Assembly (NCBI RefSeq): GCF_000241955.1
Contig: NC_016818.1
Coordinates: 2,170,001 to 2,234,000 of the forward strand
From: Rahnella aquatilis CIP 78.65 = ATCC 33071
GTDB taxonomy: Bacteria; Pseudomonadota; Gammaproteobacteria; Enterobacterales; Enterobacteriaceae
Direction: 5' to 3'
Length of the DNA stretch: 64,000 nucleotides
Both the position numbers and the translations under genes were made by a program. Shown here in pieces: positions 13,595-41,118 of this stretch. Position 1 is the first letter of the stretch; each line of letters opens with the position of its first letter. The notes beneath the pieces were generated by a model that ran no database searches, had not been told where the DNA came from, and was given only the letters and a program-made list of their open reading frames with translations.

Positions 13595-13802
13595 ATTCAT
13601 GATTTTCATCCCCATATATTTCCCATAGCCCAAATTGCCGTGGTGTTCACGGCACCACCCAAAAGTCGAATGAAGTTTCTACAGACGGCACTTAAAACCT
13701 TCGCAATGTTTCCCTGCTTTGTGCGGAAATGCTAACTTATTAGGTCGGAACGAGAGTTTTTGGCATAATTCATCCGGTACATCCGGCATTACAGGAATGA
13801 AT

Positions 13803-14114
13803 GTGAAATATCTGCTGATTTTTTTATTTTTGCTGGTCATCGTTGTGATTTCTATCACCCTCGGTGCCCATAACGATCAGACTGTGACCTTCAATTATTT
13901 GCTGGCGCAGGGGGACTACCGTGTTTCCACATTGCTTGCCGTGCTGTTTGCGACCGGTTTTATTCTTGGCTGGATAATCTGTGGTTTGTTCTACCTGCGC
14001 GTACGCCTGTCACTGGGACGTGCTCAGCGTAAAATTAAACGCCTGGAACAACAAATCGAACCCGCGGCTGTCGTTACGCCGCCAGCAGCATCTTACGATG
14101 TCAGCAAGGAATAA
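13803..14114 (+). CDS. lapA: Lipopolysaccharide assembly protein LapA
   Basis: 103 residues starting at GTG. This start is preferred over the ATG two codons upstream because CAGGA ends right against that ATG but stands six bases before the GTG, and the resulting MKYLLIFLFLL equals the E. coli N terminus. Two membrane segments (about residues 2-22 and 40-62) precede a basic cytoplasmic coiled tail. LapA works with LapB in control of LpxC turnover and LPS assembly. lapB starts six bases downstream, so the two are surely co-transcribed. Confidence 0.93.
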   Translation: MKYLLIFLFLLVIVVISITLGAHNDQTVTFNYLLAQGDYRVSTLLAVLFATGFILGWIICGLFYLRVRLSLGRAQRKIKRLEQQIEPAAVVTPPAASYDVSKE

Positions 14115-14120
14115 CCCTCT

Positions 14121-15290
14121 ATGTTAGAACTGCTGTTTCTGTTGTTGCCCGTTGCGGCCGCCTATGGCTGGTACATGGGGCGCAGAAGTTCTCAGCAGGA
14201 CAAACAGGAAAATGCTAACCGCCTGTCACGTGAATACGTCGCGGGGGTTAACTTCCTGCTTTCCAATCAGCAGGATAAAGCGGTCGACCTGTTCCTCGAA
14301 ATGTTGAAAGAGGACAGCAGTACGGTCGAAGCGCACCTGACTCTGGGTAACCTGTTCCGCTCCCGTGGTGAAGTCGATCGTGCGATCCGTATCCATCAGT
14401 CGCTGATGGAAAGCGCTTCGCTGACTTTCGAACAGCGACTGCTTGCCGTGCAGCAACTGGGGCGGGATTACATGGCTGCCGGTTTCTATGACCGTGCGGA
14501 GGACATGTTCAACCAGCTGGTGAAAGAGCAGGATTTCCAGTTGTTTGCTCTGGAACAGTTGTTGATTATTCATCAGGCCACCAGCGACTGGCAGAACGCC
14601 ATTGATGTGGCGGAACGTCTGGTCAAGCTCGGCAAAGAAAACCGCCGTAAAGAAATTGCGCATTTCTGGTGTGAACTGGCATTGCAGGCAATGGTGTCTG
14701 AAGATTTCGATAAGGCGACCGGCTTGCTGAAAAAAGCCGCAGCAGCGGACAAACTCTGTGCCCGAGTCTCCATTATGCAGGGGCGGATTTTACTGGCGCA
14801 GGGCGAATACCGCAAAGCGACAGAGGCCTTGCAGCGGGTGCTGGAGCAGGATAAAGAGCTGGTCAGCGAAGCGTTACCGATGCTGCAGGAGTGTTACCAG
14901 AATCTTGATGATACGCTGGCATGGGCGGAGTTTCTCAAACGTTGCGTGGACGAAAATACCGGCGCTACGGCAGAACTGATGCTGGCTGAAATCATCCATG
15001 ACGAAGAAGGGCGTGAGACAGCGCAAAACTATATCAACCGTCAGTTGCAACGCCATCCGACCATGCGGGTGTTCCATCATCTGATGGATTACCACCTGGC
15101 CGATGCGGAAGAAGGGCGTGCAAAAGAGAGTCTGGTATTGTTGCGGGATATGGTGGGTGAACAGATCCGGACGAAGCCACGCTATCGTTGTCATAAATGC
15201 GGCTTTACCGCGCATTCACTCTACTGGCATTGCCCGTCGTGCCGTGGCTGGGCAACGATAAAACCGATCCGCGGATTAGATGGTCAGTAG
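14121..15290 (+). CDS. lapB: Lipopolysaccharide assembly protein LapB (YciM)
   Basis: 389 residues, the E. coli length. An N-terminal membrane anchor (residues 1-20) is followed by TPR repeats and a C-terminal rubredoxin-type metal site with Cys357, Cys360, Cys371 and Cys374 (RCHKCGF...HCPSC). LapB directs FtsH to degrade LpxC and so balances LPS against phospholipid synthesis; PbgA/YejM antagonises it. In this family it is essential or nearly so. It is coupled to lapA and followed by an inverted-repeat region. Confidence 0.97.
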   Translation: MLELLFLLLPVAAAYGWYMGRRSSQQDKQENANRLSREYVAGVNFLLSNQQDKAVDLFLEMLKEDSSTVEAHLTLGNLFRSRGEVDRAIRIHQSLMESASLTFEQRLLAVQQLGRDYMAAGFYDRAEDMFNQLVKEQDFQLFALEQLLIIHQATSDWQNAIDVAERLVKLGKENRRKEIAHFWCELALQAMVSEDFDKATGLLKKAAAADKLCARVSIMQGRILLAQGEYRKATEALQRVLEQDKELVSEALPMLQECYQNLDDTLAWAEFLKRCVDENTGATAELMLAEIIHDEEGRETAQNYINRQLQRHPTMRVFHHLMDYHLADAEEGRAKESLVLLRDMVGEQIRTKPRYRCHKCGFTAHSLYWHCPSCRGWATIKPIRGLDGQ

Positions 15291-28265: not shown

Positions 28266-29162
28266 ATGCAGATAGAAGATCTTCGTATTTTTATTGCCGT
28301 GGTGAAAGCGGGGAATTTTACCGCTGCGGCTGAACAACTGATGCTTTCAAAGCAATATGTCAGTCGCCGCATGGCAACGCTGGAGGCTGGTTTAAATGCG
28401 CGGCTGCTCAACCGTAACACCCGCAAACTGTCGGTGACTGAATCCGGCCAGTTGTTCGCGCAACATGCGCAGCGGATCCTCGACGATATCGAAGAGGCCG
28501 AACGGGCGGTGTCGCCCAAACGGCAGGCGCTTCAGGGGTCGTACCGCATCAGCATTCCGATGTCGTTCGGTATCAGCCATCTTTCGCCGCTGATTGCCGA
28601 ATTTTTAGGCCAGCATCCGGCGATTCAGTTTCAGGTAGAACTGGTTGACCGCTATGTTGATCTGGTCGGTGAAGGTTTCGATATCGCGCTGCGCATTGGT
28701 AATCTGGCGGACTCCTCGCTGGTGGCGCGGCGGCTTGGCGAGCTGAAGCGGGCTATCTGTTGCAGCCCGGAATATCTTCAGCGCAAGGGGATGCCGGAAA
28801 CACCGGAGGATTTGCTCAATCATGATTGTCTGCGTTACGGGCGCGAAGGGCAGACCGGCTGGGAGCTGGAACTGCACGGCAAACGCCGTCTGTTCGAGGT
28901 GCGCGGGCCGATTGTCAGCAATAACGGCGAAGTGCTGCGCGATGCGGCCGTCGCCGGACTCGGGCTGGTATTACTGCCGGAATTTATCGTCGGCCCGGCG
29001 CTGCAATATGGCGCACTGGTTCGGGTACTGGATGCATTTCATCCCGGCTCGCTCAGCCTGCACGCCATTTATCCGCAGCATCGCCAGCGCAGCGAAGTCA
29101 CCCGCGTATTTCTCGATTTTTTACAGCAAAGGCTAAAGGCACAACTGCTGGTGTCGGCCTGA
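28266..29162 (+). CDS. LysR-family regulator divergent from the pirin gene
   Basis: 298 residues. The N-terminal winged helix (MQIEDLRIFIAVVKAGNFTAAAEQL) and the effector domain are complete. The pattern ending VARRLGELKRAICCSPEYL belongs to the large AaeR/DhcR-like group often paired with pirins or oxidoreductases. The effector is unknown. The spacer between it and the pirin gene probably carries the shared operator; I could not fix a T-N11-A site with confidence. Confidence 0.85.
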   Translation: MQIEDLRIFIAVVKAGNFTAAAEQLMLSKQYVSRRMATLEAGLNARLLNRNTRKLSVTESGQLFAQHAQRILDDIEEAERAVSPKRQALQGSYRISIPMSFGISHLSPLIAEFLGQHPAIQFQVELVDRYVDLVGEGFDIALRIGNLADSSLVARRLGELKRAICCSPEYLQRKGMPETPEDLLNHDCLRYGREGQTGWELELHGKRRLFEVRGPIVSNNGEVLRDAAVAGLGLVLLPEFIVGPALQYGALVRVLDAFHPGSLSLHAIYPQHRQRSEVTRVFLDFLQQRLKAQLLVSA

Positions 29163-29309
29163 GATACGCGCCGCAGATGTTAGCTGACCCGCGTCACATT
29201 TTTTTAGCGATCACACATAAATCCAGTGTTTTGTAGGATTTGCATCGTTTTTTCCTATAAAAACTGCCGTACTTTGATGTTACGAGAACGTTAACTGAAG
29301 GGGCGGAAA

Positions 29310-30077
29310 ATGAATCATTCATCTGAACAATATCTTGCTGCGCTGGGCGCAACACAACCGTTAACGCCAGCGCAGGCTGACGAGCTGGAGACGCGCGGAT
29401 ACCTTGTTATTCACGATGTTATCGACCAGGACTGGCTGGAAGATATGCGCGCCACCTTTGACGCGCTGGTGGAAAAGGAGGGCGATAATCTCGCCGTTGA
29501 ACACCATCAGGAAGCCACCGCAACCCGTATCGCCAATATGATCAACAAAGGTACCGTGTGGGAAAAAGTGTGGTCGCATCCGCTGATCCTGTCCGTCTGC
29601 CACCATATCTTCGGCGGTGCGTTTAAGGTTTCGAGCCTCAATGGGCGCGAAGCACTGCACCGGGGCGGCCATCAGCCGCTGCACGCCGACTGGAAAAAGC
29701 CGCGTCCGGATTTCCCGAAAGTGCATCTGGTCAATGCCATCGTGGCGATTGACGATTTGAGCGCCGCCAACGGCGCACCACGCATTATTCCCGGCACCCA
29801 TCACCGCCCGGAACTGCCGGAGGATGTGCTGGCGGATGTTGAATTATCGCATCCTGATGAAGTGGTGTTTGAGGCACCGGCGGGCAGTGTGATGATCTAT
29901 AACGCTCACGCGTGGCACGGCGGCACCAATAACCGCGCCGGCACCCGTCGCCGCGTGCTGCACAGTTTGTATATCGACCGCGCCGATGCCCAGCAGCAGG
30001 ACCAGCGTAAATGGCTGAAGCCGGAAACGGCAAGCCGCCTGACTCCTGCACAGAAATGGCTGCTCGACGTGCTGTGA
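29310..30077 (+). CDS. Phytanoyl-CoA dioxygenase (PhyH) family protein
   Basis: 255 residues. The Fe(II)/2-oxoglutarate facial triad is present: His125 and Asp127 in LHADW and a distal His in AHAWHGGTNN (His203), with Arg212-214 downstream to bind 2-oxoglutarate. The family includes ectoine hydroxylase and many small-molecule hydroxylases, so the substrate cannot be read from sequence. GAAGGGGCGGAAA precedes the ATG. A terminator follows, so it is a single-gene unit next to an AraC regulator. Confidence 0.85.
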   Translation: MNHSSEQYLAALGATQPLTPAQADELETRGYLVIHDVIDQDWLEDMRATFDALVEKEGDNLAVEHHQEATATRIANMINKGTVWEKVWSHPLILSVCHHIFGGAFKVSSLNGREALHRGGHQPLHADWKKPRPDFPKVHLVNAIVAIDDLSAANGAPRIIPGTHHRPELPEDVLADVELSHPDEVVFEAPAGSVMIYNAHAWHGGTNNRAGTRRRVLHSLYIDRADAQQQDQRKWLKPETASRLTPAQKWLLDVL

Positions 30078-30095
30078 ATTGCTGTTTATTTCCTG

Positions 30096-30123
30096 AAGCC
30101 TGGCCTGCCGGTCAGGCTTTTTT
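30096..30123 (+). terminator. Intrinsic terminator after the PhyH gene
   Basis: The stem AAGCCTG / CAGGCTT is followed by a run of T residues. Confidence 0.85.
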
Positions 30124-30242
30124 ATTGTCTTTTACCGGGCTTTTTGCCGGACATCAGAGGGCGGTCACAGTGCGGCAGGCTGCATCACCGCGTATTTGTT
30201 ACGTGTATGTTATGATGAAAAGAAATCCTCTGAGAGACTGCC

Positions 30243-31091
30243 ATGCTGCAAGACGTGATAGAAACACTGTTCCGGTCGCTGTCCGGCAGTGAGGCGTTTG
30301 CTGTCAGGTTTCCTGATAATTCCCAGCCGCCACCTGATCTGGCCTCGGTGGTCAGTTTTCCCCGTATTGAATTTGTGATTGAAGGTGAAGTCCGCGATCG
30401 CAGCATTGCCGCAGGTAAAGGGCTGCTCAGGCAGGGCGATGCGCTGTACATTCCGGGTGGAAAGTGGAATCTGACGGTGTGGGACAAACCCGCGACAGTT
30501 TTGAGTATTCTGTTCAGCAAAGAAAAACTGGGTTTCAGTTTGCAGTTCTGGGATGGCGTGACATTTACCAGCACGGATAAACAAAGTGTTTCGCGCCTTG
30601 GCCCGCGCGTGGGCTCGTTTTTGTTGCAGGCGATGAATGAAATTGTCTCCACGCCTGACGACCAGCAAACCGCGCGCTGCGTGGTGGCGGGGCTGTTAAG
30701 CCATTGCCAGGAACAACTCGCCAACAGGGCGCAGATCCTCACCCGCAGCGGGGCGCTTTTTGAGGTAATCAAAAAGTATATTGAAGAGAATGCCTCCCTG
30801 CCGCTGACGCGTGAAAATGTGGCAAAGCGTTTCCATATCACGCCGAATTACCTGTCTCATTTATTTCGCAAATCCGGTGATATTGGCTTCAGCGAGTACC
30901 TCAATCACGTCCGGCTGGAAAAGGCAAAACTGTTGCTTAAAGGCTATGAACTGAAGATTAAAGAAGTGGCGACCAGCAGCGGCTTCGTTGACAGCAACTA
31001 TTTCTGCCGTGTTTTTCGCAAAAGCACCGCCCGTTCGCCTTCTGAATATCGCAGCCAGTGGCTGAGTCAGTTGTCGGAGCGAAAGTCGTAA
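30243..31091 (+). CDS. AraC-family transcriptional regulator
   Basis: 282 residues with an N-terminal cupin-like sensor and two C-terminal helix-turn-helix motifs: LTRENVAKRFHITPNYLSHLF (about residues 195-215) and IKEVATSSGFVDSNYFCRVFRK (about 242-263). Its target may be the PhyH gene upstream or the operon beginning 260 bases downstream. The effector is unknown. Confidence 0.85.
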   Translation: MLQDVIETLFRSLSGSEAFAVRFPDNSQPPPDLASVVSFPRIEFVIEGEVRDRSIAAGKGLLRQGDALYIPGGKWNLTVWDKPATVLSILFSKEKLGFSLQFWDGVTFTSTDKQSVSRLGPRVGSFLLQAMNEIVSTPDDQQTARCVVAGLLSHCQEQLANRAQILTRSGALFEVIKKYIEENASLPLTRENVAKRFHITPNYLSHLFRKSGDIGFSEYLNHVRLEKAKLLLKGYELKIKEVATSSGFVDSNYFCRVFRKSTARSPSEYRSQWLSQLSERKS

Positions 31092-31261: not shown

Positions 31262-31275
31262 GTTGTACATACAAG
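31262..31275 (+). promoter_or_regulatory. HutC-type operator over the expected transcription start
   Basis: GTTGTACATACAAG differs in one base from the inverted repeat CTTGTATGTACAAG bound by HutC in pseudomonads and keeps TGTA-N2-TACA. It overlaps the start expected from the sigma-54 promoter, a position suited to repression. The GntR/UTRA gene at the operon's end is the natural candidate repressor. Confidence 0.6.
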
Positions 31276-31353: not shown

Positions 31354-32448
31354 ATGATTTCATTTGAGAACATAAGCAAATTTTACGCAGATGGTACGGT
31401 GGCGGTAGACAGGCTGTCGTTCAGCGCGCCGACGGGAAAAATTACCATGCTGGTCGGACCGTCGGGCTGCGGCAAAACCACTTCATTGCGCATGATCAAC
31501 CGGCTAACGGAACCCTCTTCAGGCAACATTTTGCTGAACGGACAGCCTGCTGCTGACATGGATCTGGTCAAACTGCGCCGCAAAATGGGGTATGTGATCC
31601 AGAATGCCGGCTTGTTTCCGCATAAAACCGTGCAGGACAACATTGCGGTCACGGCGCTGCTCAACGGGGCGACACGCACGGCAGCCCGTAAAAAAGCCCT
31701 CGGATTACTTGAACTGGTCGGGCTTTCCCTGACGATGGCGGAGCGCTATCCGTGGCAGTTGTCCGGCGGTCAGCAGCAAAGGGTTGGCGTGGCGCGTGCG
31801 CTGGCGTCGGACCCGGAATTCATGCTGATGGACGAACCTTTCAGCGCCGTCGATCCGGTGGTGCGCGAACAGTTACAGGATGAGTTTTTAAGATTACAAG
31901 GTGAAATCGGCAAGACCATTATTATGGTCACTCACGATATTGATGAGGCGATGAAATTAGGCGATCAGGTCGCCGTTTTCCGCCCCGGTGGTCGTCTGGC
32001 GCAAATCGCCTCGCCGGTTAAGTTGCTCAATGAACCGCAGGATGCGTTTGTTGCTGATTTTATTGGCCGTGACCGCGGATACCGTAAACTTTCCTTTGAT
32101 AGGATCCCGGAGAATATCAGCCTGACGAAAGAACCGGTGATCGCGCCGGGTATTTCCGTCAGCGAAGCCAGAGCCCTTGCCGGAGATAATGCCTGGTTGC
32201 TGGTGGTTGAAAATGAGTGTCCGCTCGGCTGGTATGATGTGACCCAAAATAAAATCACCGTAGACCCTGAAGATATTAATCTCGGCAGCACTTTTGCGCC
32301 GAAAAATGGCACCCTGCGTCAGCTCATGGATTCGGTATTAAGTTCCCCCTGTCAGCGCGGTATCGTGGTTGATGAACATCAGCGCTTTATCGGCACGGCA
32401 AATATCGAACAGGTATTTTCACTTTCTCATTCCCGCGCTGTGAGGTAA
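31354..32448 (+). CDS. ABC importer ATPase, quaternary-amine (OpuCA/OsmV) type
   Basis: 364 residues from the ATG giving MISFENISKFY. A GTG five codons earlier is possible. Walker A GPSGCGKTT, signature LSGGQQQRVGVARAL, Walker B MLMDEPFSAVD and the H-loop VTHDIDEAM are intact. A C-terminal CBS-like regulatory region (about residues 250-360) is typical of betaine/choline importers, where it senses ionic strength. It is the first of nine closely spaced genes; the permease follows four bases later. Confidence 0.9.
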   Translation: MISFENISKFYADGTVAVDRLSFSAPTGKITMLVGPSGCGKTTSLRMINRLTEPSSGNILLNGQPAADMDLVKLRRKMGYVIQNAGLFPHKTVQDNIAVTALLNGATRTAARKKALGLLELVGLSLTMAERYPWQLSGGQQQRVGVARALASDPEFMLMDEPFSAVDPVVREQLQDEFLRLQGEIGKTIIMVTHDIDEAMKLGDQVAVFRPGGRLAQIASPVKLLNEPQDAFVADFIGRDRGYRKLSFDRIPENISLTKEPVIAPGISVSEARALAGDNAWLLVVENECPLGWYDVTQNKITVDPEDINLGSTFAPKNGTLRQLMDSVLSSPCQRGIVVDEHQRFIGTANIEQVFSLSHSRAVR

Positions 32449-32452
32449 TGCC

Positions 32453-33103
32453 ATGCGTTTTGACTGGTTATTTCAGCAGCGGGAAAATATAGCCACGCTG
32501 CTCGGCTGGCATATTTACCTGTCGGTTATTCCGGTATTAATCGGGCTGGCACTGGCTATTCCGGTAGGCGGTATTTTGCACCGCTGCGGGAAATTTAAAG
32601 ACGGTATTCTTAATGTATTAGGTTTGCTTTATACCATTCCTTCTCTGGCGTTATTTGTTTTATTACCCGGCCTGCTGGGGACAAAAATTCTGGACACGGT
32701 GAATGTCGTGGTGGCCCTGACGCTTTATGCGTTTGCGCTGCTGATCCGCACCGTGTGCGACGGGCTGGATTCTGTTCCCCATGAAACCCGTCAGGCCGCC
32801 GTCGCCATGGGCTACCGGCCATTGCAGCGTTTTCTGAGCGTGGAATTGCCGCTGGCCGTGCCGGTTATTGCCGCCGGTATGCGGGTGGTGGTGGTATCGA
32901 ACGTCAGCATTGTGTCCATTTCAGCACTGGTCGGCATGCCGCAACTGGGGGCGTTATTCACCCAGGGTTTCCAGTTACATTTCCTGACGCCGATTATTGC
33001 CGGTATTTTCCTGTGTATTGTGCTGGCGCTGTTGCTGGATAATCTGGTGCTGCGTACCGGCAATAAAATGACCACCTGGCAACCGAAAAGGAACGCTAAA
33101 TGA
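32453..33103 (+). CDS. ABC importer permease 1, quaternary-amine type
   Basis: 216 residues with about five membrane helices and the cytoplasmic coupling motif region ETRQAAVAMGYRPLQRFLSVELPLAVPVIAAGMR. This belongs to the BPD transporter inner-membrane family of OpuCB/OsmW/OsmY type. Its stop overlaps the start of the second permease (ATGA), so translation is coupled. Confidence 0.9.
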   Translation: MRFDWLFQQRENIATLLGWHIYLSVIPVLIGLALAIPVGGILHRCGKFKDGILNVLGLLYTIPSLALFVLLPGLLGTKILDTVNVVVALTLYAFALLIRTVCDGLDSVPHETRQAAVAMGYRPLQRFLSVELPLAVPVIAAGMRVVVVSNVSIVSISALVGMPQLGALFTQGFQLHFLTPIIAGIFLCIVLALLLDNLVLRTGNKMTTWQPKRNAK

Positions 33104-33807
33104 TTAACTGGTTGCTGGACTCCGGTCACTGGCTCAACGATGACGGCCTGCTGGTGCTGATATTTCAGCATCTGATTTACAGCATTGAAGCCTTGTTTAT
33201 TGCGGTCATCATCGCTTTTCCGATCGGGTGTTATGTCGGTCATACCGGCAAAGGTGCGACGTTATTGATCGGCAGCGCCAATGCCATGCGTGCGTTGCCC
33301 TCATTCGGATTGATCATCTTACTGGTGATTATATTCGGGCCGGTGTTTGAATCGGATCTGGCCTTTATTGTGCCTTGTCTGATTGTGCTGATTATTCTGG
33401 CGTTGCCGCCCATCATGATGGGGGTCTATTCCGGTATCCGGGCGATCAATCCGGCGGTTATTGACGCCGCAACCGGCATGGGATATTCACCGCTGAAATT
33501 ACTGCTGACGGTGGAAATACCCTGCGCGATGGCGTTGATATTATCCGGCATCCGCAGTGCTGCGCTGCAAATTGTGTCTACGGCCACGATTGCTGCCTAT
33601 GTTTCCCTGGGCGGTTTGGGGCGGCTGATTATTGATGGCCGTGCGCAGAATGATTATCCGCAAATGGTTGCGGGTGCTTTTATGGTGGGAATATTAGCGT
33701 TACTGGTTGATGTATTTTTCTCTTTTTTAATTCGTTTCATTGTTTCACCAGGATTACGGCAACGTGAGCGTCGCCGTAAAAAAACAATTCCTTTATCAAA
33801 TAACTGA
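33100..33807 (+). CDS. ABC importer permease 2, quaternary-amine type
   Basis: 235 residues. A second permease of the same family, with the coupling motif VIDAATGMGYSPLKLLLTVEIPCAMALILSGIR and several membrane helices. Two different permeases per importer is the rule for OpuC/Osm-type systems. The tail RERRRKKTIPLSNN is basic and cytoplasmic. Confidence 0.9.
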   Translation: MINWLLDSGHWLNDDGLLVLIFQHLIYSIEALFIAVIIAFPIGCYVGHTGKGATLLIGSANAMRALPSFGLIILLVIIFGPVFESDLAFIVPCLIVLIILALPPIMMGVYSGIRAINPAVIDAATGMGYSPLKLLLTVEIPCAMALILSGIRSAALQIVSTATIAAYVSLGGLGRLIIDGRAQNDYPQMVAGAFMVGILALLVDVFFSFLIRFIVSPGLRQRERRRKKTIPLSNN

Positions 33808-33841
33808 ATTATCTACTCACTCATTCCGGAGCCTGACAAAA

Positions 33842-34726
33842 ATGAAATTGAAAAATCTGCTCGCCGTTGCCCTGTTTTCTGCTGCTGTCGTACACGTCCC
33901 TGTCGCTTTTTCCGCTGACACGGCGGGCACCATTATCATCGGTTCGGCGGATTTCCCGGAAAGCCAGCTGATTGCCACGATTTATCAGCAGGCGCTGGCG
34001 GCGAAAAACGTCAAGGTGGAAACCAAACTTAATATCGGCAGCCGTGAGGTATATATGCCTGCGCTGCTCGACGGCTCAATCAACCTGATCCCGGAATACA
34101 GCGGTGCCACGCTGAGTTATCTCGACGAAAAAACCCAGGCGCATTCTTCAGAAGATGTGGCGGCGGCGCTGGCCAAAGCACTGCCTGAGAAAATCAAAAT
34201 GCTGGATATTTCTGCTGCGCAGGACAGCGATGTACTGGCGGTCACTGAGAAAACCGCCAAAAAACACAATCTGAAAGACATCAGTGACCTGGCACCGGTG
34301 GCAAAAACGCTGGTACTGGGCGGCCCGGCAGAATGGAAAACCCGTCGTGAAGGGGTGAAGGGGCTGAGTGAAGTGTACGGACTGACCTTTAAGAATTTCA
34401 AAGTGCTCGATGTTGCCGGTCCGCTGACGCTGTCTGCACTGACCAACAATCAGATTCAGGTGGCGGACATGACTTCAACCGATCCGGCGATGAAAACCAA
34501 AAATCTGGTGGCGCTGGAAGATTCAAAACACTTATTCCCGGCGCAAAACATTGTGCCGCTGATTGCTAAAGACAAAGCCAGCGAAGTGGTGGAAACCACG
34601 CTGAACAATGTGTCCAGGCAACTGACCACCGGCGATTTGATCGTGATGAACGGCAAACTGGCGAACTTCGAAAGTGTGGATGCCGTGGCAAAAGAGTGGC
34701 TGACCGGGCACGGGCTGAATAAATGA
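33842..34726 (+). CDS. Periplasmic substrate-binding protein, OsmF/OpuCC type
   Basis: 294 residues from the ATG behind CCGGAG; an upstream in-frame start would overlap the permease and lacks a signal peptide. Residues 1-23 (ending VAFSAD) form a Sec signal; a lipobox is absent, so it is a soluble periplasmic protein. IGSADFPESQLIA, LNIGSREVYMPALLDGSINLIPEYSGATLSYL and LKDISDLAP are typical of the glycine-betaine/choline binding family (QAT). Aromatic residues of the ligand box cannot be fixed without a structure. The last bases overlap the lyase start (ATGA). Confidence 0.9.
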   Translation: MKLKNLLAVALFSAAVVHVPVAFSADTAGTIIIGSADFPESQLIATIYQQALAAKNVKVETKLNIGSREVYMPALLDGSINLIPEYSGATLSYLDEKTQAHSSEDVAAALAKALPEKIKMLDISAAQDSDVLAVTEKTAKKHNLKDISDLAPVAKTLVLGGPAEWKTRREGVKGLSEVYGLTFKNFKVLDVAGPLTLSALTNNQIQVADMTSTDPAMKTKNLVALEDSKHLFPAQNIVPLIAKDKASEVVETTLNNVSRQLTTGDLIVMNGKLANFESVDAVAKEWLTGHGLNK

Positions 34727-36267
34727 TGACGCGTACTGTCATTTTAGGCACGGCGGAAACCACCGTCCGTGACATCACGGATATCGCTTACGGGGCGCCG
34801 GTGCTGCCGGACCCGTCAGCGTCAGAGGCCATGCTGATCGTGCACGAGAAAATCAGGCAGGCGATTGCTGACAATAAAGTGATTTATGGCCTGACCACCG
34901 GCGTGGGCGACCTGGTCACTCAGCGCCTGTCGCCGGAGCAAATCTCCGACGTGCAGATCAATATGCTGAAAAGCCATGCCTGCGGTACGGGGCCGGTTCT
35001 GGCGCAGCATGAAGTGCGGGCGATGATGGCGGTGATGATGAAATCCCTGCTACAGGGATTCAGCGGCGTCAGTCCGGCGCTGGTGCAGACGATGGCCGGG
35101 ATGCTTAACAAGGGGGTGACGCCGTGGTCACCCGCCAAAGGGTCAGTCGGTTATCTGATTGCCACCGCGCATATCGGGCTGTCGGTGTTCGGCTACGGAA
35201 AATCGTTCTATCAGGGCGAACTGTTACCGGCACGGGAAGCGCTGGAACGGGCGGGGATTGCCGTGCGTATTCCCGGCCCGCGCGAGGGGCATGCGCTGGT
35301 CAGCGGCACGTATGAAATCACTGCGCTGGGGTGTCTGGCGGCAGACACCTTCCGCGAATTGCTGCCGGTGGCGGATGCCGCAGGGGGCATGAGCCTGGAA
35401 GTGCTGAAGGGGAATATCCGCGGATATGACGCCCGTCTTCACGCGCTGCGCCCGCACGATGGCCAGCAGGAAACTGCGCGGATTTTGCGCTGTCTCCTGC
35501 GAGACAGTGAGATCCTCGATAAATACCGTGATTTTCGCGTTCAGGACGCGCTGAGCCTGCGCTGCATTCCGCAAATGCACGGCGCGGTGCGGGACGTGTT
35601 GCGTTATTGCCTGAAAACGCTGACCACGGAAATCAATTCTGTCACAGATAATCCGGTGTTTATGGTGGAAGACGGCGAGCTGAACGTACTGCCGGGCGGC
35701 AACGGGCACGGTGCGCCGGTGGCGCTGTGTCTGGATGCGCTGGCGATTGCCATTGCACAACTCAGCACCGGTTCGCAGGCCCGTTCTGACCGCCTGACGA
35801 ACAGCCATCTCAGCGGATTACCGGCTTTTCTGGTGGCGGGTGGCGGGGCACATTCAGGGATGATGATCCCGCCGTACGCTGCCGCCGCGCTGGCAGGGGA
35901 AAACCGTGCGCTGGCGGCACCGGCCAGCGTGCATACCGTTTCCACCTGTGCCGGACAGGAAGACCATATTTCCATGGGCGTGACAGCGGCGCGCAATGCC
36001 CTTGATGCGGTTGAAAATGCCATTGATATCGTGGCGATAGAAATCCTGTGTGCCACGCAGGCGGTGGAATTCCACCGGCCACTGCGCGCGTCGGCGGGCA
36101 CGGAAACCGTGCTGTCTCTGGTGCGTGAGCAGGTGGCCTTCCGGCAAAGTGACGAGGAAATGTACCCGGATATGCTGGCCATCCGCCAGCTCATCAAACA
36201 GGGCGATATCTTCCGCGCGCTGACCCCTCTGATTTTCGCAGACATGGCTGACGGAGAAACCGCATGA
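34723..36267 (+). CDS. HAL/PAL-family lyase lacking the MIO-forming Ala-Ser-Gly
   Basis: 514 residues, the length of histidine ammonia-lyase, and colinear with it: YGLTTGVGDLVT with Tyr55, SHACGTG, VQDALSLRCIPQMHGA, TDNPVF, GGNGHGAPVA, and AGQEDHISMG. The one break is at residues 140-150. Where the family reads GSVGASGDLAPLAH, this protein reads GSVGYLIATAH, so the three residues that cyclise to the MIO electrophile are gone while the frame and flanks stay intact. It therefore cannot work as an ordinary ammonia-lyase. Ergothionase, which expels trimethylamine instead of ammonia, is the known relative that does without MIO (from memory). Position behind a quaternary-amine importer supports a trimethylammonium lyase. 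Confidence 0.85.
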   Translation: MMTRTVILGTAETTVRDITDIAYGAPVLPDPSASEAMLIVHEKIRQAIADNKVIYGLTTGVGDLVTQRLSPEQISDVQINMLKSHACGTGPVLAQHEVRAMMAVMMKSLLQGFSGVSPALVQTMAGMLNKGVTPWSPAKGSVGYLIATAHIGLSVFGYGKSFYQGELLPAREALERAGIAVRIPGPREGHALVSGTYEITALGCLAADTFRELLPVADAAGGMSLEVLKGNIRGYDARLHALRPHDGQQETARILRCLLRDSEILDKYRDFRVQDALSLRCIPQMHGAVRDVLRYCLKTLTTEINSVTDNPVFMVEDGELNVLPGGNGHGAPVALCLDALAIAIAQLSTGSQARSDRLTNSHLSGLPAFLVAGGGAHSGMMIPPYAAAALAGENRALAAPASVHTVSTCAGQEDHISMGVTAARNALDAVENAIDIVAIEILCATQAVEFHRPLRASAGTETVLSLVREQVAFRQSDEEMYPDMLAIRQLIKQGDIFRALTPLIFADMADGETA

Positions 36268-37466
36268 GTGCATCAGCAACATCCCGGCCGCTGGAAGGGA
36301 TCAAAGTGCTCGACCTTTCCCGCGTGCTGGCCGGACCTTACTGCGCTTCGCTGCTCAATGATTTGGGTGCGGAAGTGATCAAAATTGAAATGCCGGGGAA
36401 AGGCGACGATTCCCGCGATTTCACCCCGCATGTTAAGGGTGAAAGCACCTATTTCATGCTGCTCAATCATGGCAAAAAGAGCCTGACGCTGAACCTGAAA
36501 TCTCCGCAAGGGCGGGCAATGCTGGAGCAACTGATTGAAGGCGCGGATGTGCTGGTGGAGAATTTCCGGCCCGGTGTGACCACCCGTCTGGGCATTGATT
36601 ATGACGCCGTGAAGAAGATCAATCCGAAGCTGGTGTATGCGAGTATTTCCGGTTTTGGTCAGCACGGGGCGCTGGCGCATAAAGCGGCTTATGATCATGT
36701 GATCCAGGCGATGGGTGGCATCATGCAGGTCACCGGCTGGGCGAACGGCGAACCGACGCGGGTAGGGGATGCGATTGGTGATGTGGTGTCGGGGCTGTAC
36801 TGTTCGTGGGGCATTCTGGCGGCATTGCTGCAACGAGGCATTACCGGCCTCGGGCAACATGTGGATGTCGCGATGCTCGATGCGATGGTATCGATGCAAA
36901 TGGTCTCGCTGACACAACTGCTGGGCGGCATGCCGCTGGCCGGACGGCTGGGTAATGCACACCCTATCAGCGCCCCCATGGACAGCTACCGTGCGGCCGA
37001 CGGTTATCTGGTGATTGCCGTCGCCAATGACAGCCTGTTCCGCCGTCTGGCACAGGCCATTGGCAAACCGGAAGTGGTACAGGATGCGCGCTTTGCCACG
37101 GATCCGCAGCGCCTGAAACATCAGTACGAATTACGGGTGCTGATTGAAGAATGGCTGCACGACAAAACCGTGGACGGGGCGCTCGCCCTGCTTGATGCAG
37201 ACGGCATTCCTGCCGCCCCGGTCTGGGGGCTGGATCAACTGTTGCAAAGCCCGCATGCCGCCGAACGCGGATTACTGCATCAGGTGATGCATCCGGTCGC
37301 CGGTGAAATCAGTATCTTACCGCAGCCGGTGAAGCTGAGCGGCATGAAACAGATACCCGATTTAATGCCGCCACAACTTGGCGAACACACCCGTGCCATT
37401 CTCAGTGCGCAACTGGGTCTGTCTTCGCAGGAGATGGACACACTCACGCAACAGGGCGTTATTTAA
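36264..37466 (+). CDS. Class III CoA-transferase (CaiB/BaiF family)
   Basis: 400 residues. The start overlaps the lyase stop (ATGA). Family markers are VLDLSRVLAGPYCASLLNDLGAEVIKIE, FRPG, and GDVVSGLYCSWGILAAL with the probable catalytic Asp at 173. These enzymes move CoA between organic acids; CaiB acts on carnitine and crotonobetaine, Frc on oxalate. Here it would charge the unsaturated acid left by the lyase. The donor is unknown; the next steps in the operon need a CoA ester. Confidence 0.9.
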   Translation: MSASATSRPLEGIKVLDLSRVLAGPYCASLLNDLGAEVIKIEMPGKGDDSRDFTPHVKGESTYFMLLNHGKKSLTLNLKSPQGRAMLEQLIEGADVLVENFRPGVTTRLGIDYDAVKKINPKLVYASISGFGQHGALAHKAAYDHVIQAMGGIMQVTGWANGEPTRVGDAIGDVVSGLYCSWGILAALLQRGITGLGQHVDVAMLDAMVSMQMVSLTQLLGGMPLAGRLGNAHPISAPMDSYRAADGYLVIAVANDSLFRRLAQAIGKPEVVQDARFATDPQRLKHQYELRVLIEEWLHDKTVDGALALLDADGIPAAPVWGLDQLLQSPHAAERGLLHQVMHPVAGEISILPQPVKLSGMKQIPDLMPPQLGEHTRAILSAQLGLSSQEMDTLTQQGVI

Positions 37467-37481
37467 CCGGAGGCAGACAAG

Positions 37482-38375
37482 ATGGGATCCACACAAGTTG
37501 CGGTGATTGGCGCGGGCACCATGGGCGCGCGCATCGCGGCGGTATTTGCTGCCAGCGGTTTTAAGGTGGCGCTTTATTCGCGCACTGAAAACTCGCTGCA
37601 CAAGGCTGCAACAGTGATCGACAGCATCGCCGCCGGGCTGGCGTCGTCGGTCACCTTCACCACGTCACTGGCGGAATGTCTGAAAGGCGCACAGATTGTT
37701 TCAGAGAATATCGCTGAGGTGCTGGCACTCAAGCAGCAGATTTTTCAGGAGATCGAAAAACAGGTTAGCGACGACTGCCTGCTGACCACTAACACCTCCA
37801 GCGTTCCGGTCGGGCAGATTGCCAGCGTGCTGGCGGTGCCGTCGCGCTTTATCGGCCTGCACTGGTTTAATCCGGCGGAGGTGATGCCGATGGTGGAAAT
37901 TGTCTGCGGGCCGCAAACGCATGAGAAAACGCGTCAGCAGGCCGCCGCGCTTTGTCAGCAACTGGGCAAACAGACGGTGACCATTCATAAAGAAGCGCCG
38001 GGTTTTATCGTCAACCGGCTGCAATACGCCATGCTGCGCGAGGCGTTGCATCTGGTCACGGCCGGAATTGCCAGCATTGAAGACGTGGATTTTGCCGTAC
38101 AAAGTACGCTTGCACCGCGCTGGTCGGCGATGGGACCGCTGAAGCTGATGGATTTTGCCGGACTGGACACGGTGAAAAATGTCGCCGCGATATTACTGCC
38201 AGCCTTATCCTGCGACGACGAGCTGCCGCCGTGGTTGCTGGCGCACATTGAGCAGGGCAATCTGGGCACCAAAACCGGCGCCGGGTTTTATCCGTGGACG
38301 GCGCAGGCTATTGAAGAAGGTCTCGCGCACCGTAACGCCACAATCCTTGCCATCAGCGGGATGCAAAAACCATGA
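37482..38375 (+). CDS. 3-hydroxyacyl-CoA dehydrogenase family protein
   Basis: 297 residues. The N-terminal NAD site GAGTMG lies at residues 10-15. The catalytic His127 and Glu139 are in GLHWFNPAEVMPMVEI, and the C-terminal helical dimer domain is complete. It would oxidise a 3-hydroxyacyl-CoA to the 3-oxo ester. CCGGAGG precedes the ATG. The gene overlaps the hydratase start by four bases. Confidence 0.9.
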   Translation: MGSTQVAVIGAGTMGARIAAVFAASGFKVALYSRTENSLHKAATVIDSIAAGLASSVTFTTSLAECLKGAQIVSENIAEVLALKQQIFQEIEKQVSDDCLLTTNTSSVPVGQIASVLAVPSRFIGLHWFNPAEVMPMVEIVCGPQTHEKTRQQAAALCQQLGKQTVTIHKEAPGFIVNRLQYAMLREALHLVTAGIASIEDVDFAVQSTLAPRWSAMGPLKLMDFAGLDTVKNVAAILLPALSCDDELPPWLLAHIEQGNLGTKTGAGFYPWTAQAIEEGLAHRNATILAISGMQKP

Positions 38376-39142
38376 GCGCACTTATCCGCTGTGAACGTCA
38401 TCAGGGCGTGGCGCATATCATTCTTAACCGGCCGGAAAAACTTAATGCCCTGAGTGCAGAAATGCTGACGCAGTTGCTGGAAAAAATGCGTGAACTGGAC
38501 GGTGATAAACAGATCCGCGCGATAGTGATTTCCGGTTCGGCGCGCGCGTTTGCTGCCGGTGCCGATACCGGCACGCTGGCCACTGCCTCAGCGATAGCCC
38601 TTTACACCAGCGGTTTCAGTGAGAAATGGGATCAGATTGCCGCCATTGAAACGCCGGTTGTCGCGGCATTATCCGGTTATGCGCTGGGTGGCGGGCTGGA
38701 ACTGGCGTTGCTGTGCGATATCGTGATTGCCGATGACACAGCCATTATCGGGCTGCCGGAAACGCACATCGGCATTATCCCCGGCGCGGGAGGCACCCAG
38801 CGGCTGGTCAAATCGGTAGGGAAATCACTGGCGATGGAAATCATCCTCGCCGGGCGGAAAATCACTGCCGCACAAGCGCTGGCCGCCGGACTGATCAGCC
38901 GTATCACCACGCCGGAAACGTTAACGGAACAGGCGTTAAAGATTGCGCAGAATATTTCCCGTGCTGCACCGCTTGCCATTAAGATGGCCAAAAAAGCCGT
39001 GCTGGCGAGTTTTGATATGGGCTTAACGGCGGGCGTCAGTTATGAACGTTCGTTGTCGGCCCTGATTGCGGCCAGCGAAGACCGCAACGAAGGCATGCGT
39101 GCACTGGCGGCGAAAGAACAGGCGGCGTTTACCGGCAAATAA
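38372..39142 (+). CDS. Enoyl-CoA hydratase/isomerase family protein
   Basis: 256 residues, crotonase fold. Both glutamates of the hydratase active site are present: Glu110 in GGGLELAL and Glu130 in LPETHIGIIPGAGGTQRL, and the oxyanion-hole loop AAGADTGTL is intact. It would hydrate an aryl-acrylyl-CoA to the 3-hydroxy ester for the dehydrogenase upstream. No thiolase gene follows, so thiolysis would rely on an enzyme elsewhere or a retro-Claisen step. Confidence 0.9.
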   Translation: MSALIRCERHQGVAHIILNRPEKLNALSAEMLTQLLEKMRELDGDKQIRAIVISGSARAFAAGADTGTLATASAIALYTSGFSEKWDQIAAIETPVVAALSGYALGGGLELALLCDIVIADDTAIIGLPETHIGIIPGAGGTQRLVKSVGKSLAMEIILAGRKITAAQALAAGLISRITTPETLTEQALKIAQNISRAAPLAIKMAKKAVLASFDMGLTAGVSYERSLSALIAASEDRNEGMRALAAKEQAAFTGK

Positions 39143-39207
39143 CGTCCGGCGAATAACGTCCGGAAAATTCGTCCGCCGCCGTGTTCCGTGCGACATACAA
39201 GGCAGGA

Positions 39208-39960
39208 ATGATGTCATCAAACAGAACGCTATCAGAAGTCATTGCGGATGCCGGAGACGAGCCTTCTCCGCTGTATAAGCAGGTGAAACAGGGGATCATT
39301 AATCAGATCCTGCACGGACACTGGCAGCCGCATCAGCGTGTGCCTTCAGAAAGTGAACTGGTCGCCGAGCTGGGGTTCAGCCGGATGACCATCAACCGGG
39401 CATTGCGCGAGTTAACCACCGAGGGCTATCTGCTGCGTTTGCAGGGCGTCGGCACCTTTGTGAATGAAATGAAAGCCTTCACGCCGATGCTGGAAGTGAA
39501 TAACATTTCTGACGAGATCAAAAGTCGCGGGCATTTTCATACCTCCCGCGTATTGCACCTGGGGGAGCAAATTGCCAGTGACAGCGTGGCGATGAAATTT
39601 ATGTTGCCGCCCGGCGTGATGTTGTTTCATTCGGTGATTGTGCATTACGAAAATGACATTCCGGTGCAGCTTGAGGACCGGCTGGTGAATCCGGACATTG
39701 CGCCGTTGTATTTACAGCAGGACTTCACTCAAACAACCCCTTTTGCCTATCTGACCCAACGGGCACCGCTGACGGCGGGCGAGCATACTATTGAAGCGGT
39801 GATGGCCGGTAACGACGAGCAGCGCCTGCTGAATATTGAGCAGACCGAACCGTGCCTGCAAACCCTGCGCCGCACCTGGCATCATGAAAAAGTGGTGACC
39901 TGCGCCCGGCTGTTATATCCGGGCGGACGCTACAAAATGTTCGGCAGCTTTAAGAAATAA
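39208..39960 (+). CDS. GntR-family regulator with UTRA domain (HutC-like)
   Basis: 250 residues from the first of two adjacent ATGs behind AAGGCAGGA; the second (39211) is equally plausible. The N-terminal winged helix (PLYKQVKQGI ... PSESELVAELGFSRMTINRALRELTTEGYLLRLQGVGTFV pattern) is followed by a UTRA ligand-binding domain resembling HutC, whose ligand is urocanate. A urocanate-like unsaturated acid is just what the lyase upstream should yield, so product-sensing autoregulation is plausible. It closes the operon. Confidence 0.88.
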   Translation: MMSSNRTLSEVIADAGDEPSPLYKQVKQGIINQILHGHWQPHQRVPSESELVAELGFSRMTINRALRELTTEGYLLRLQGVGTFVNEMKAFTPMLEVNNISDEIKSRGHFHTSRVLHLGEQIASDSVAMKFMLPPGVMLFHSVIVHYENDIPVQLEDRLVNPDIAPLYLQQDFTQTTPFAYLTQRAPLTAGEHTIEAVMAGNDEQRLLNIEQTEPCLQTLRRTWHHEKVVTCARLLYPGGRYKMFGSFKK

Positions 39961-40059: not shown

Positions 40060-41118
40060 ATGAAAACTGTTGGATTTGCTGCTTACGATCCGAAAAAACC
40101 GCTGGCGCCGTATACGTTTGAACGCCGCGGCCTGCGTGATAACGATGTCGCGATGGAAATTCTGTATTGCGGCGTTTGCCATTCCGATTTACATACCGCA
40201 AGAAATGACTGGGGCTGGAGTTATTATCCGATTGTTCCCGGTCATGAAATCGTCGGGCGTGTCACCAGTATTGGTAAAGGCGTCACCCGCTACAAATTGG
40301 GTGATCATGTCGCCGTGGGGTGCATGGTGGACAGTTGTCAGGAATGCGATCAGTGCAAAAAAGGTGAAGAGCAGTTGTGCCGCGAAGGTAACACCGGCAC
40401 GTACGCCGGTTATGACCGTTTCACCAAAGAGCCGACGCAGGGCGGATACTCCAAGCATTTAGTGGTGCGCGAGGAATTTTGTCTGCGTATGCCGGAAGGG
40501 TTAGATCTCGCCAAAGCCGCGCCGCTGTTGTGCGCCGGTATTACCACCTGGTCACCATTGAAAACCTGGAACGTCAAACCGGGCAGCCGTGTTGGCGTGA
40601 TTGGTCTGGGCGGTCTGGGGCATATGGCAGTGAAACTGGCGGTCGGTCTGGGTGCAGATGTGACGGTGGTGAGCCGTTCAAATGCCAAAGAAGCCGATGC
40701 GCTGGAATTAGGCGCAGGCCGTCTGCTGGTCAGCGCGGACAGTGACGCGATGGCGCAGGCACACGATCATTTCGATCTGATCATCGATACCGTGCCGGTC
40801 AGACACGACATCACGCCGTATCTGCCATTGCTGGATGTGGACGGTACGCTGGTGCTGGTCGGGCAGGTCGGGCCGATGGAAGAATTTAACACTGTCCCGC
40901 TGCTGTTAGGCCGTCGTCGCGTGGCCGGTTCGCCAATCGGCGGGATCCGCGAAACGCAGGAAATGCTCGATTTCTGTGCGGAGAAAAACATTCTGCCGGA
41001 TTGCGAAATGATCCGCATGGATGAAATTAACGAAGCGTTTGAGCGTATGGAAAAAGCCGATGTGCGCTATCGTTTTGTGATTGATATGGCTTCGCTGGCC
41101 GCGCCTGCCACGGTCTGA
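40060..41118 (+). CDS. Zinc-dependent NAD(P) alcohol dehydrogenase (YahK-like)
   Basis: 352 residues, cinnamyl-alcohol-dehydrogenase group of the MDR family. The catalytic zinc ligands are in CGVCHSDLH and GHEIVGRV, and the structural zinc site is CQECDQCKKGEEQLC. The NADP-binding motif is GLGGLGHMAVK. It is close to E. coli YahK, a broad aldehyde reductase. Its own AGGAG site and a 99-base gap separate it from the operon upstream. It ends at a bidirectional terminator. Confidence 0.88.
   Translation: MKTVGFAAYDPKKPLAPYTFERRGLRDNDVAMEILYCGVCHSDLHTARNDWGWSYYPIVPGHEIVGRVTSIGKGVTRYKLGDHVAVGCMVDSCQECDQCKKGEEQLCREGNTGTYAGYDRFTKEPTQGGYSKHLVVREEFCLRMPEGLDLAKAAPLLCAGITTWSPLKTWNVKPGSRVGVIGLGGLGHMAVKLAVGLGADVTVVSRSNAKEADALELGAGRLLVSADSDAMAQAHDHFDLIIDTVPVRHDITPYLPLLDVDGTLVLVGQVGPMEEFNTVPLLLGRRRVAGSPIGGIRETQEMLDFCAEKNILPDCEMIRMDEINEAFERMEKADVRYRFVIDMASLAAPATV

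Follow-up and report, generated by a model that had tools for sequence, protein, structure and literature searches.

A MIO-less lyase operon of Rahnella aquatilis linked to HutC: a candidate route for N-alpha-modified histidine with a CoA side branch

A nine-gene operon lies within a 64,000-nucleotide stretch (the window) of the 5.45 Mb genome of Rahnella aquatilis CIP 78.65 = ATCC 33071 (contig NC_016818.1, positions 2,170,001 to 2,234,000), and encodes a betaine-family ATP-binding cassette (ABC) importer, a lyase of the histidine ammonia-lyase fold family, three CoA enzymes and a HutC-type repressor (Table 1). The lyase has lost the triad that forms the 4-methylidene-imidazol-5-one (MIO) group, orthologous lyases sit inside hut cassettes, an operator-like site precedes the operon, and the CoA trio has been inherited together with the lyase; the substrate, the products and the role of the trio are predicted from these features. 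We see a little better than an even chance that this is a HutC-controlled operon for the use of an N-alpha-modified histidine, most likely hercynine (N-trimethylhistidine, or histidine betaine). The ABC system would import hercynine, and the lyase, helped by recognition of the imidazole ring, would remove the amine (as trimethylamine, if hercynine is the substrate) by direct elimination to give urocanate. Urocanate would relieve HutC repression and be degraded by hut enzymes, which a separate complete hut operon would supply here and which many relatives encode in the cassette itself. The three CoA enzymes would act on an unsaturated acid formed by the lyase, possibly an analogue of urocanate that is no substrate of urocanase; the transferase would activate it, the hydratase hydrate it and the dehydrogenase oxidise it, and a housekeeping thiolase would finish this branch. 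On this reading HutC ties the operon to the hut regulon, and the CoA branch stands at its side.

The lyase reads GSVG-YLIATAH where histidine ammonia-lyases read GSVG-ASGDLAPLAH, so that the A-S-G triad is missing, as an earlier note made from the letters of this DNA had recognised; the motif GSVGYLIATAH (with A or S before H) is found in the window lyase and in all 26 intact orthologues. Lyase_aromatic is its only Pfam match, and it falls below the NCBI histidine ammonia-lyase cut-offs (487 vs 539 for TIGR01225, 504.6 vs 524 for NF006871). Aligned to HutH of Pseudomonas putida, it keeps the positions of Y53, H83, Q277, R283, M382 and E414, its H85 and E413 being the equivalents of H83 and E414, which we take to be the imidazole contacts. 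Three positions that presumably lie around the amine and the MIO group are changed (N195 to S, Y280 to L and F329 to G). The lyase thus shares the imidazole-contact positions with HutH but neither its triad nor its subfamily scores, and this residue pattern fits a substrate with a histidine-like ring and a modified amine that leaves without the help of MIO, as happens in ergothionase. An ordinary MIO-type HutH is encoded in the same genome, in a complete hut operon (L108, 2402001-2422000). Ergothionase is described as lacking MIO and releasing trimethylamine (PMC13405746), and cofactor-free elimination needs a good leaving group, a point in favour of a trimethylated histidine.

The ergothionase of Treponema denticola (6s7j) belongs to the same fold family, has no MIO triad and holds equivalents of H83 and E414, but its triad is replaced by EGD, not YLIATAH, it falls in a separate tree clade, and the window clade has hut or CoA genes around it. 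It ranks 17th of 39 solved relatives of the window lyase at 168.7 bits, the best being a probable histidine ammonia-lyase at 321 bits; for Sinorhizobium and Rhizobium plasmid lyases 6s7j is the best match (297 and 265 bits). A quick maximum-likelihood tree was built from 63 rows (20 of the window clade, 11 of a clade with the motif YLTHMAH, 23 of 45 MIO-type lyases, 8 chosen others and 6s7j), with a program warning of long branches. The window clade forms one group (support 100) and stands with the MIO-type lyases and the YLTHMAH clade on one side (support 98), apart from 6s7j and its kin. Membership in the T. denticola ergothionase clade was rejected by score and by this tree. Given the long-branch warnings, the deep placement is a lead, by which the window clade may be nearer to true histidine ammonia-lyases than to the Treponema ergothionase. 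The YLTHMAH clade (GSVGYLTHMAH; L027-L036 and L080) is a second MIO-less clade found near hut genes, and its L027 member exceeds an NCBI histidine ammonia-lyase subfamily cut-off (542.5 vs 524) though MIO-less. The one substrate-binding protein (SBP) tested in this clade, that of the L027 cluster (13595-14446, minus strand), has octopine- and nopaline-binding proteins as its best matches, at 213 and 202 bits with the next match at 120, and so points to an N-substituted histidine as the substrate of that cluster.

One scan of genome contigs gave 41 loci, comprising 26 with an intact lyase of the window clade (L037-L062), one with a broken lyase (L063) and 14 with more distant lyases. The ATPase, two permeases and SBP genes lie 5' of the lyase in 25 of the 26 intact loci, the exception (L060) being a 6.7 kb contig, and complete hutU, hutI, hutG, hutD, hutC and hutF genes surround the lyase in 14 (L042-L053, L055 and L061). 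In 13 of these 14 it is the sole lyase within 10 kb; Kosakonia quasisacchari has a MIO-type one too. On two Klebsiella plasmids the annotated order is hutG, imidazolonepropionase, cytosine permease, hutU, ABC genes, lyase, HutD (annotated as hypothetical on one plasmid), hutC and formimidoylglutamate deiminase, and hutH is absent from the stretches read of both cassettes. The two cassette HutU proteins tested reach 1013 and 1016 bits with the urocanate hydratase model (cut-off 375), but 692 and 691 bits with the thiourocanate hydratase model, below its cut-off of 930; on these profile scores both are judged genuine urocanases. The single cassette formimidoylglutamate deiminase tested scores 678 bits (cut-off 413). 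A lyase that stands in the place of HutH and feeds urocanase would therefore yield urocanate or something very close to it, and urocanate is the most likely product because hut genes and HutC operators recur as partners of the lyase and the H83 and E414 positions are kept. Set against the Hut pathway (HutH, HutU, HutI, HutF and HutG under HutC control), these systems have the same downstream enzymes in 14 of 26 loci and the same repressor family and operator, but a MIO-less lyase, accompanied by a betaine-family ABC importer, takes the place of HutH, and the CoA trio is added in some.

Several further observations concern these cassettes. Enterobacter sp. EA-1 (L063 / L026) holds an entire hut-type cassette with this lyase, broken into fragments. 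The lyase gene of K. variicola matches 203 of 72,556 plasmid records, 163 of them over at least 80% of the gene and 191 of the 203 from Klebsiella, and the lyase occurs in two of 5,426 E. coli genomes, both times on plasmids. The Klebsiella cassette also has a cytosine-permease-family gene (L109:3011-4405) that could encode a HutT-type transporter of urocanate; a match to chromosomal hutT is reported for a published K. pneumoniae CRISPR spacer (PMC12188710).

The choice of hercynine owes much to two Pantoea clusters (L058:2-11506 and L062:2-11515), which hold an orthologous lyase 59-60% identical, with S instead of M at the M382 position in both. A urocanase-like protein, a BisC-family reductase-like gene, an amidohydrolase and a carbamoylase-like gene lie before the ABC genes. 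In L058, ErtD (700, cut-off 600) and ErtE (527, cut-off 520) pass their models, and the urocanase fragment scores best as S-methyl-thiourocanate hydratase (786, cut-off 880), with 587 as thiourocanate hydratase. These genes belong to ergothioneine-type betaine pathways, and by this association the lyase clade can serve histidine betaines. The same clade stands beside ErtD and ErtE of Ert ergothioneine catabolism in Pantoea, but the window operon is without Ert genes: no thiourocanate hydratase, ErtD or ErtE was found among the operon genes and scanned neighbours. A lyase clade able to serve histidine betaines, with plain hut genes downstream, makes hercynine the natural substrate, and we therefore regard it, rather than tyrosine or tryptophan betaine, as the most likely candidate.

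Regulation points the same way. The operon's repressor passes the NCBI HutC equivalog model (288.7 bits vs a cut-off of 220), which bears out its earlier description as HutC-like, and TGTA-N2-TACA is given as the canonical HutC site in PMC12977541. In 22 of 30 loci this sequence occurs no more than 200 bases 5' of the ATPase gene; mononucleotide shuffling of those stretches gives an expectation of 0.14, and near-copies among the loci make the counts less than independent. The window is among the loci that bear it, as are other clusters that lack hut genes. Urocanate is reported to release HutC in P. putida (PMC12772324). The four one-mismatch sites at the genome's own canonical hut locus have a different form (TGTATAGACA, or its reverse complement), and for this reason the two HutC proteins of the genome may have separate operators.

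The homologous CoA trio (transferase, hydratase and dehydrogenase) is complete in 11 of the 26 intact loci, namely those of Rahnella, Serratia inhibens, Rouxiella silvae, five Cedecea/Enterobacter/Enterobacteriaceae records, Kosakonia sacchari, a record named Martelella alba, and Rhizobium tropici. Mixed sets are found in Burkholderia sp. S171 (an orthologous dehydrogenase with a 45% transferase and a 35% hydratase) and in Pseudomonas gingeri (a 43% transferase, a 37% hydratase and a 3-hydroxyisobutyrate-dehydrogenase-like gene), and the CoA-transferase is broken in one locus (Acerihabitans). Co-inheritance was measured over 15 loci, some of them near-copies: the window, 11 genome-contig loci, Sodalis and Rhizobium beringeri plasmids and one further genome. 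Pairwise identities of the transferase, dehydrogenase and hydratase follow those of the lyase with r of 0.981, 0.969 and 0.974, as do those of the ATPase (0.978) and SBP (0.965), and none of 2000 label shuffles reaches these values; the trio and the lyase have therefore travelled together. The residues that we take to be catalytic (the transferase Asp, the hydratase Glu pair and the dehydrogenase His/Glu) are kept in 15 of 15 loci. No trio hit above 55 bits was found in 11 comparison loci (ten of the YLTHMAH clade and the genome's own hut locus). The search of genomes for the same gene set, a check that the earlier note had itself proposed, thus shows the link between lyase and CoA genes to be real. 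Kosakonia has lost the trio by deletion, as remnants show: L048 retains pieces of the transferase start and the hydratase end, and L050 a piece of 15 hydratase residues. Complete in 11 of 26 loci and deleted here, the trio is dispensable and accessory.

A number of observations weigh against this reading. The SBP, whose predicted structure has a mean predicted local distance difference test score (pLDDT) of 90.2, has lost the aromatic cage of the ergothioneine importer EgtU (Y341 to D, Y419 to T and Y443 to Q, with F293 to Y). E375 is retained, a residue that in EgtU contributes to the discrimination between ergothioneine and hercynine and favours the former (PMC9732360). The trio has no role in a plain breakdown of hercynine to glutamate, and yet it accompanies a complete hut set in six loci. 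A usable trio or mixed set is missing from 12 of the 26 loci (none in 11, broken in 1), and the contig of L060 is too short to tell. The L058 urocanase fragment is also above the cut-off for plain urocanate hydratase (573 vs 375). Finally, the operator was not found in 8 of the 30 loci, and PCA is reported as a signal for the HutC of Pseudomonas aeruginosa (PMC12772324), so HutC need not mean urocanate alone.

The SBP deserves closer comparison with EgtU. The two share a family and equivalents of E375 and R379, but besides the cage the window protein lacks K242, T296 (here A) and G244 (here F), the last being invariant in EgtU, and in the window the SBP and permeases are encoded by separate genes. 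The quaternary-amine type first assigned to it therefore holds at the level of the OpuAC family and not at that of the cage residues. The Pantoea SBPs, with V, F and Q at the Y341, Y419 and Y443 positions, also lack the cage; because they accompany betaine-type pathway genes, the cage seems dispensable in this SBP subfamily, and the doubt about hercynine stands. One subclade with hut genes and no trio (L051, L053, L055, L061, L109 and L111) has L at Y419 in the SBP and G at N195 in the lyase, which hints that substrate preference may shift with the module, one clade counting as one event.

Two other histidine derivatives have to be weighed on this evidence. The lyase may take ergothioneine or a derivative, also or instead, with the trio disposing of a thiourocanate-type acid not hydrated by urocanase, in place of the known thiourocanate hydratase route; the Pantoea orthologues in an Ert-type cluster indicate that the clade can serve thio-histidine betaines, E375 and R379 are retained, and neither Pantoea Ert cluster has the trio, which does occur in loci that lack Ert genes (a small number). 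We nevertheless consider this unlikely, since the urocanase and formimidoylglutamate deiminase of the cassettes tested are genuine, the EgtU-invariant G244 is F in the window SBP, and the window clade is distant from the T. denticola ergothionase. Somewhat less probable again is an N-substituted but non-trimethylated histidine (opine-like or another N-alkyl form, for example) that is eliminated to urocanate. The Pantoea SBPs are cage-less too, though their pathway genes belong to the trimethylated ergothioneine, and we know of no opine-like or other N-alkyl histidine that is a common nutrient; the acidic or polar residues that replace the cage (D, T or L, Q), the less bulky residues that surround the amine in the lyase, and the resemblance of the sister-clade SBP of L027 to octopine- and nopaline-binding proteins would all agree with such a substrate.

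What, then, would the trio do in such an operon? Because it is dispensable and stands beside a complete hut route in the six loci mentioned, it reads as a side branch, and as a side branch it is plausible. Those six loci already have a urocanase, and thiourocanate or another 2-substituted urocanate is for this reason a first guess at its substrate. The wider proposal, that a cofactor-free lyase near HutH opens a pathway for N-modified histidine while a co-inherited CoA branch shortens an imidazole-acrylate (urocanyl-CoA or a 2-substituted analogue), is a tentative one about which we are more doubtful than confident.

The earlier note had instead proposed a tyrosine, tryptophan or similar aryl betaine, converted to an aryl-acrylate and shortened as a CoA ester by the main route of the operon. 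The co-inheritance of the lyase with the CoA-transferase, hydratase and dehydrogenase, the comparable CoA sets beside other MIO-less lyases, and the five loci where the trio lies with no hut gene in the surrounding 10 kb are in keeping with that scheme. It is nonetheless very improbable, given that hut genes and HutC sites accompany the lyase, that the E414 and H83 positions are kept, and that the trio is so often missing or broken; tyrosine or tryptophan betaine as the main substrate was set low because hut genes and HutC operators go with the lyase. Import, cofactor-free elimination from an N-modified aromatic amino acid and the lyase-CoA link, with its conserved catalytic residues, survive from the proposal; the aryl betaines and the CoA route as the main one do not, the trio being dispensable and found alongside hut genes.

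An ergothionase-like lyase on a Rhizobium johnstonii plasmid (Rhizobium plasmid loci L113:4018-14699 and L112) lies beside a family I CoA-transferase, a short-chain dehydrogenase/reductase, a MaoC dehydratase, hutC and a betaine SBP. This lyase has 6s7j as its best match, the motif AADLAPLAH, R at the H83 position and A at M382, its SBP has cage residues at three of the four aromatic positions, and the set is perhaps for a bulkier aromatic betaine. Because it supplies the same three functions from other families, lyase and CoA activation have probably been combined more than once, which supports the chemical idea of the earlier note and not its choice of substrate.

A CoA-transferase III with a hydratase is also the CaiB/CaiD combination, and with a transporter of the betaine family it could be supposed that the trio handles carnitine, crotonobetaine or another imported betaine, unrelated to the lyase. 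This we regard as the most improbable of the readings: the proteins are far below the carnitine-specific cut-offs (145 vs 413 bits for carnitine CoA-transferase and 126.8 vs 592 for carnitine 3-dehydrogenase), and a carnitine/crotonobetaine system was rejected on those scores. Moreover, the trio tracks the lyase, within whose operon it lies behind a HutC site, and different CoA genes are found beside related lyases.

Hercynine is the precursor of ergothioneine and is made by fungi and some bacteria; the bacterium carrying the operon is probably plant-associated. If the hercynine reading is correct, the operon shows in concrete genes how histidine betaine is turned into urocanate and trimethylamine, suggests a loss of the MIO group within the histidine-lyase lineage that was separate from that of ergothionase, and accounts for a plasmid-borne gene annotated as aromatic amino acid or histidine ammonia-lyase; the CoA branch would add a step new to metabolism. 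Neither a hercynine lyase or urocanyl-CoA pathway nor a gene set for hercynine breakdown was found described in open-licence PMC literature, which is not proof of absence.

All nine open reading frames first listed for the operon are present on one strand in the order given, with the Pfam families as named (Table 1), and the same gene order is kept in distant genomes, so the arrangement is more than chance. The nearest orthologous operon in the scan is that of Rahnella perminowiae (lyase 95% identical). The packing with ATGA overlaps that had been described applies to four of the eight junctions (permease 1/2, SBP/lyase, lyase/CoA-transferase and dehydrogenase/hydratase), the other four being gaps of about 4 to 70 bases. 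There is no thiolase among the operon genes, as had been noted, and two strong Thiolase_N matches lie elsewhere in the genome.

Table 1. Features of the operon, in window coordinates
Feature	Position	Strand	Remarks
HutC operator-like palindrome TTGTACATACAA	31263..31274	.	putative; core TGTA-N2-TACA at 31264-31273; ~90 bases 5' of ATPase gene
ABC transporter ATPase, ProV-like	31354..32448	+	Pfam ABC_tran; other possible start GTG 31339
ABC permease 1	32453..33103	+	Pfam BPD_transp_1
ABC permease 2	33100..33807	+	Pfam BPD_transp_1
Substrate-binding protein (SBP), OpuAC family	33842..34726	+	Pfam OpuAC; EgtU-like cage residues lost
MIO-less lyase, histidine ammonia-lyase fold family	34723..36267	+	Pfam Lyase_aromatic, 518 bits; motif GSVGYLIATAH
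CoA-transferase family III	36264..37466	+	Pfam CoA_transf_3, 422 bits
3-hydroxyacyl-CoA dehydrogenase (HADH)	37482..38375	+	Pfam 3HCDH_N + 3HCDH
Enoyl-CoA hydratase (ECH)	38372..39142	+	Pfam ECH_1
HutC-type GntR/UTRA repressor	39211..39960	+	Pfam GntR + UTRA; other possible start GTG 39181

Upstream of the operon (28266-31091) are genes for a LysR regulator, a phytanoyl-CoA-dioxygenase-family protein and an AraC regulator, and an alcohol dehydrogenase gene (40060-41118) lies downstream. These flanking genes were rejected as parts of the operon, as they are not kept with it: among 29 loci (L037-L065) they are found at 95-98% identity only in Rahnella perminowiae (L037), and beyond it there are only weak matches to the LysR or dehydrogenase families.

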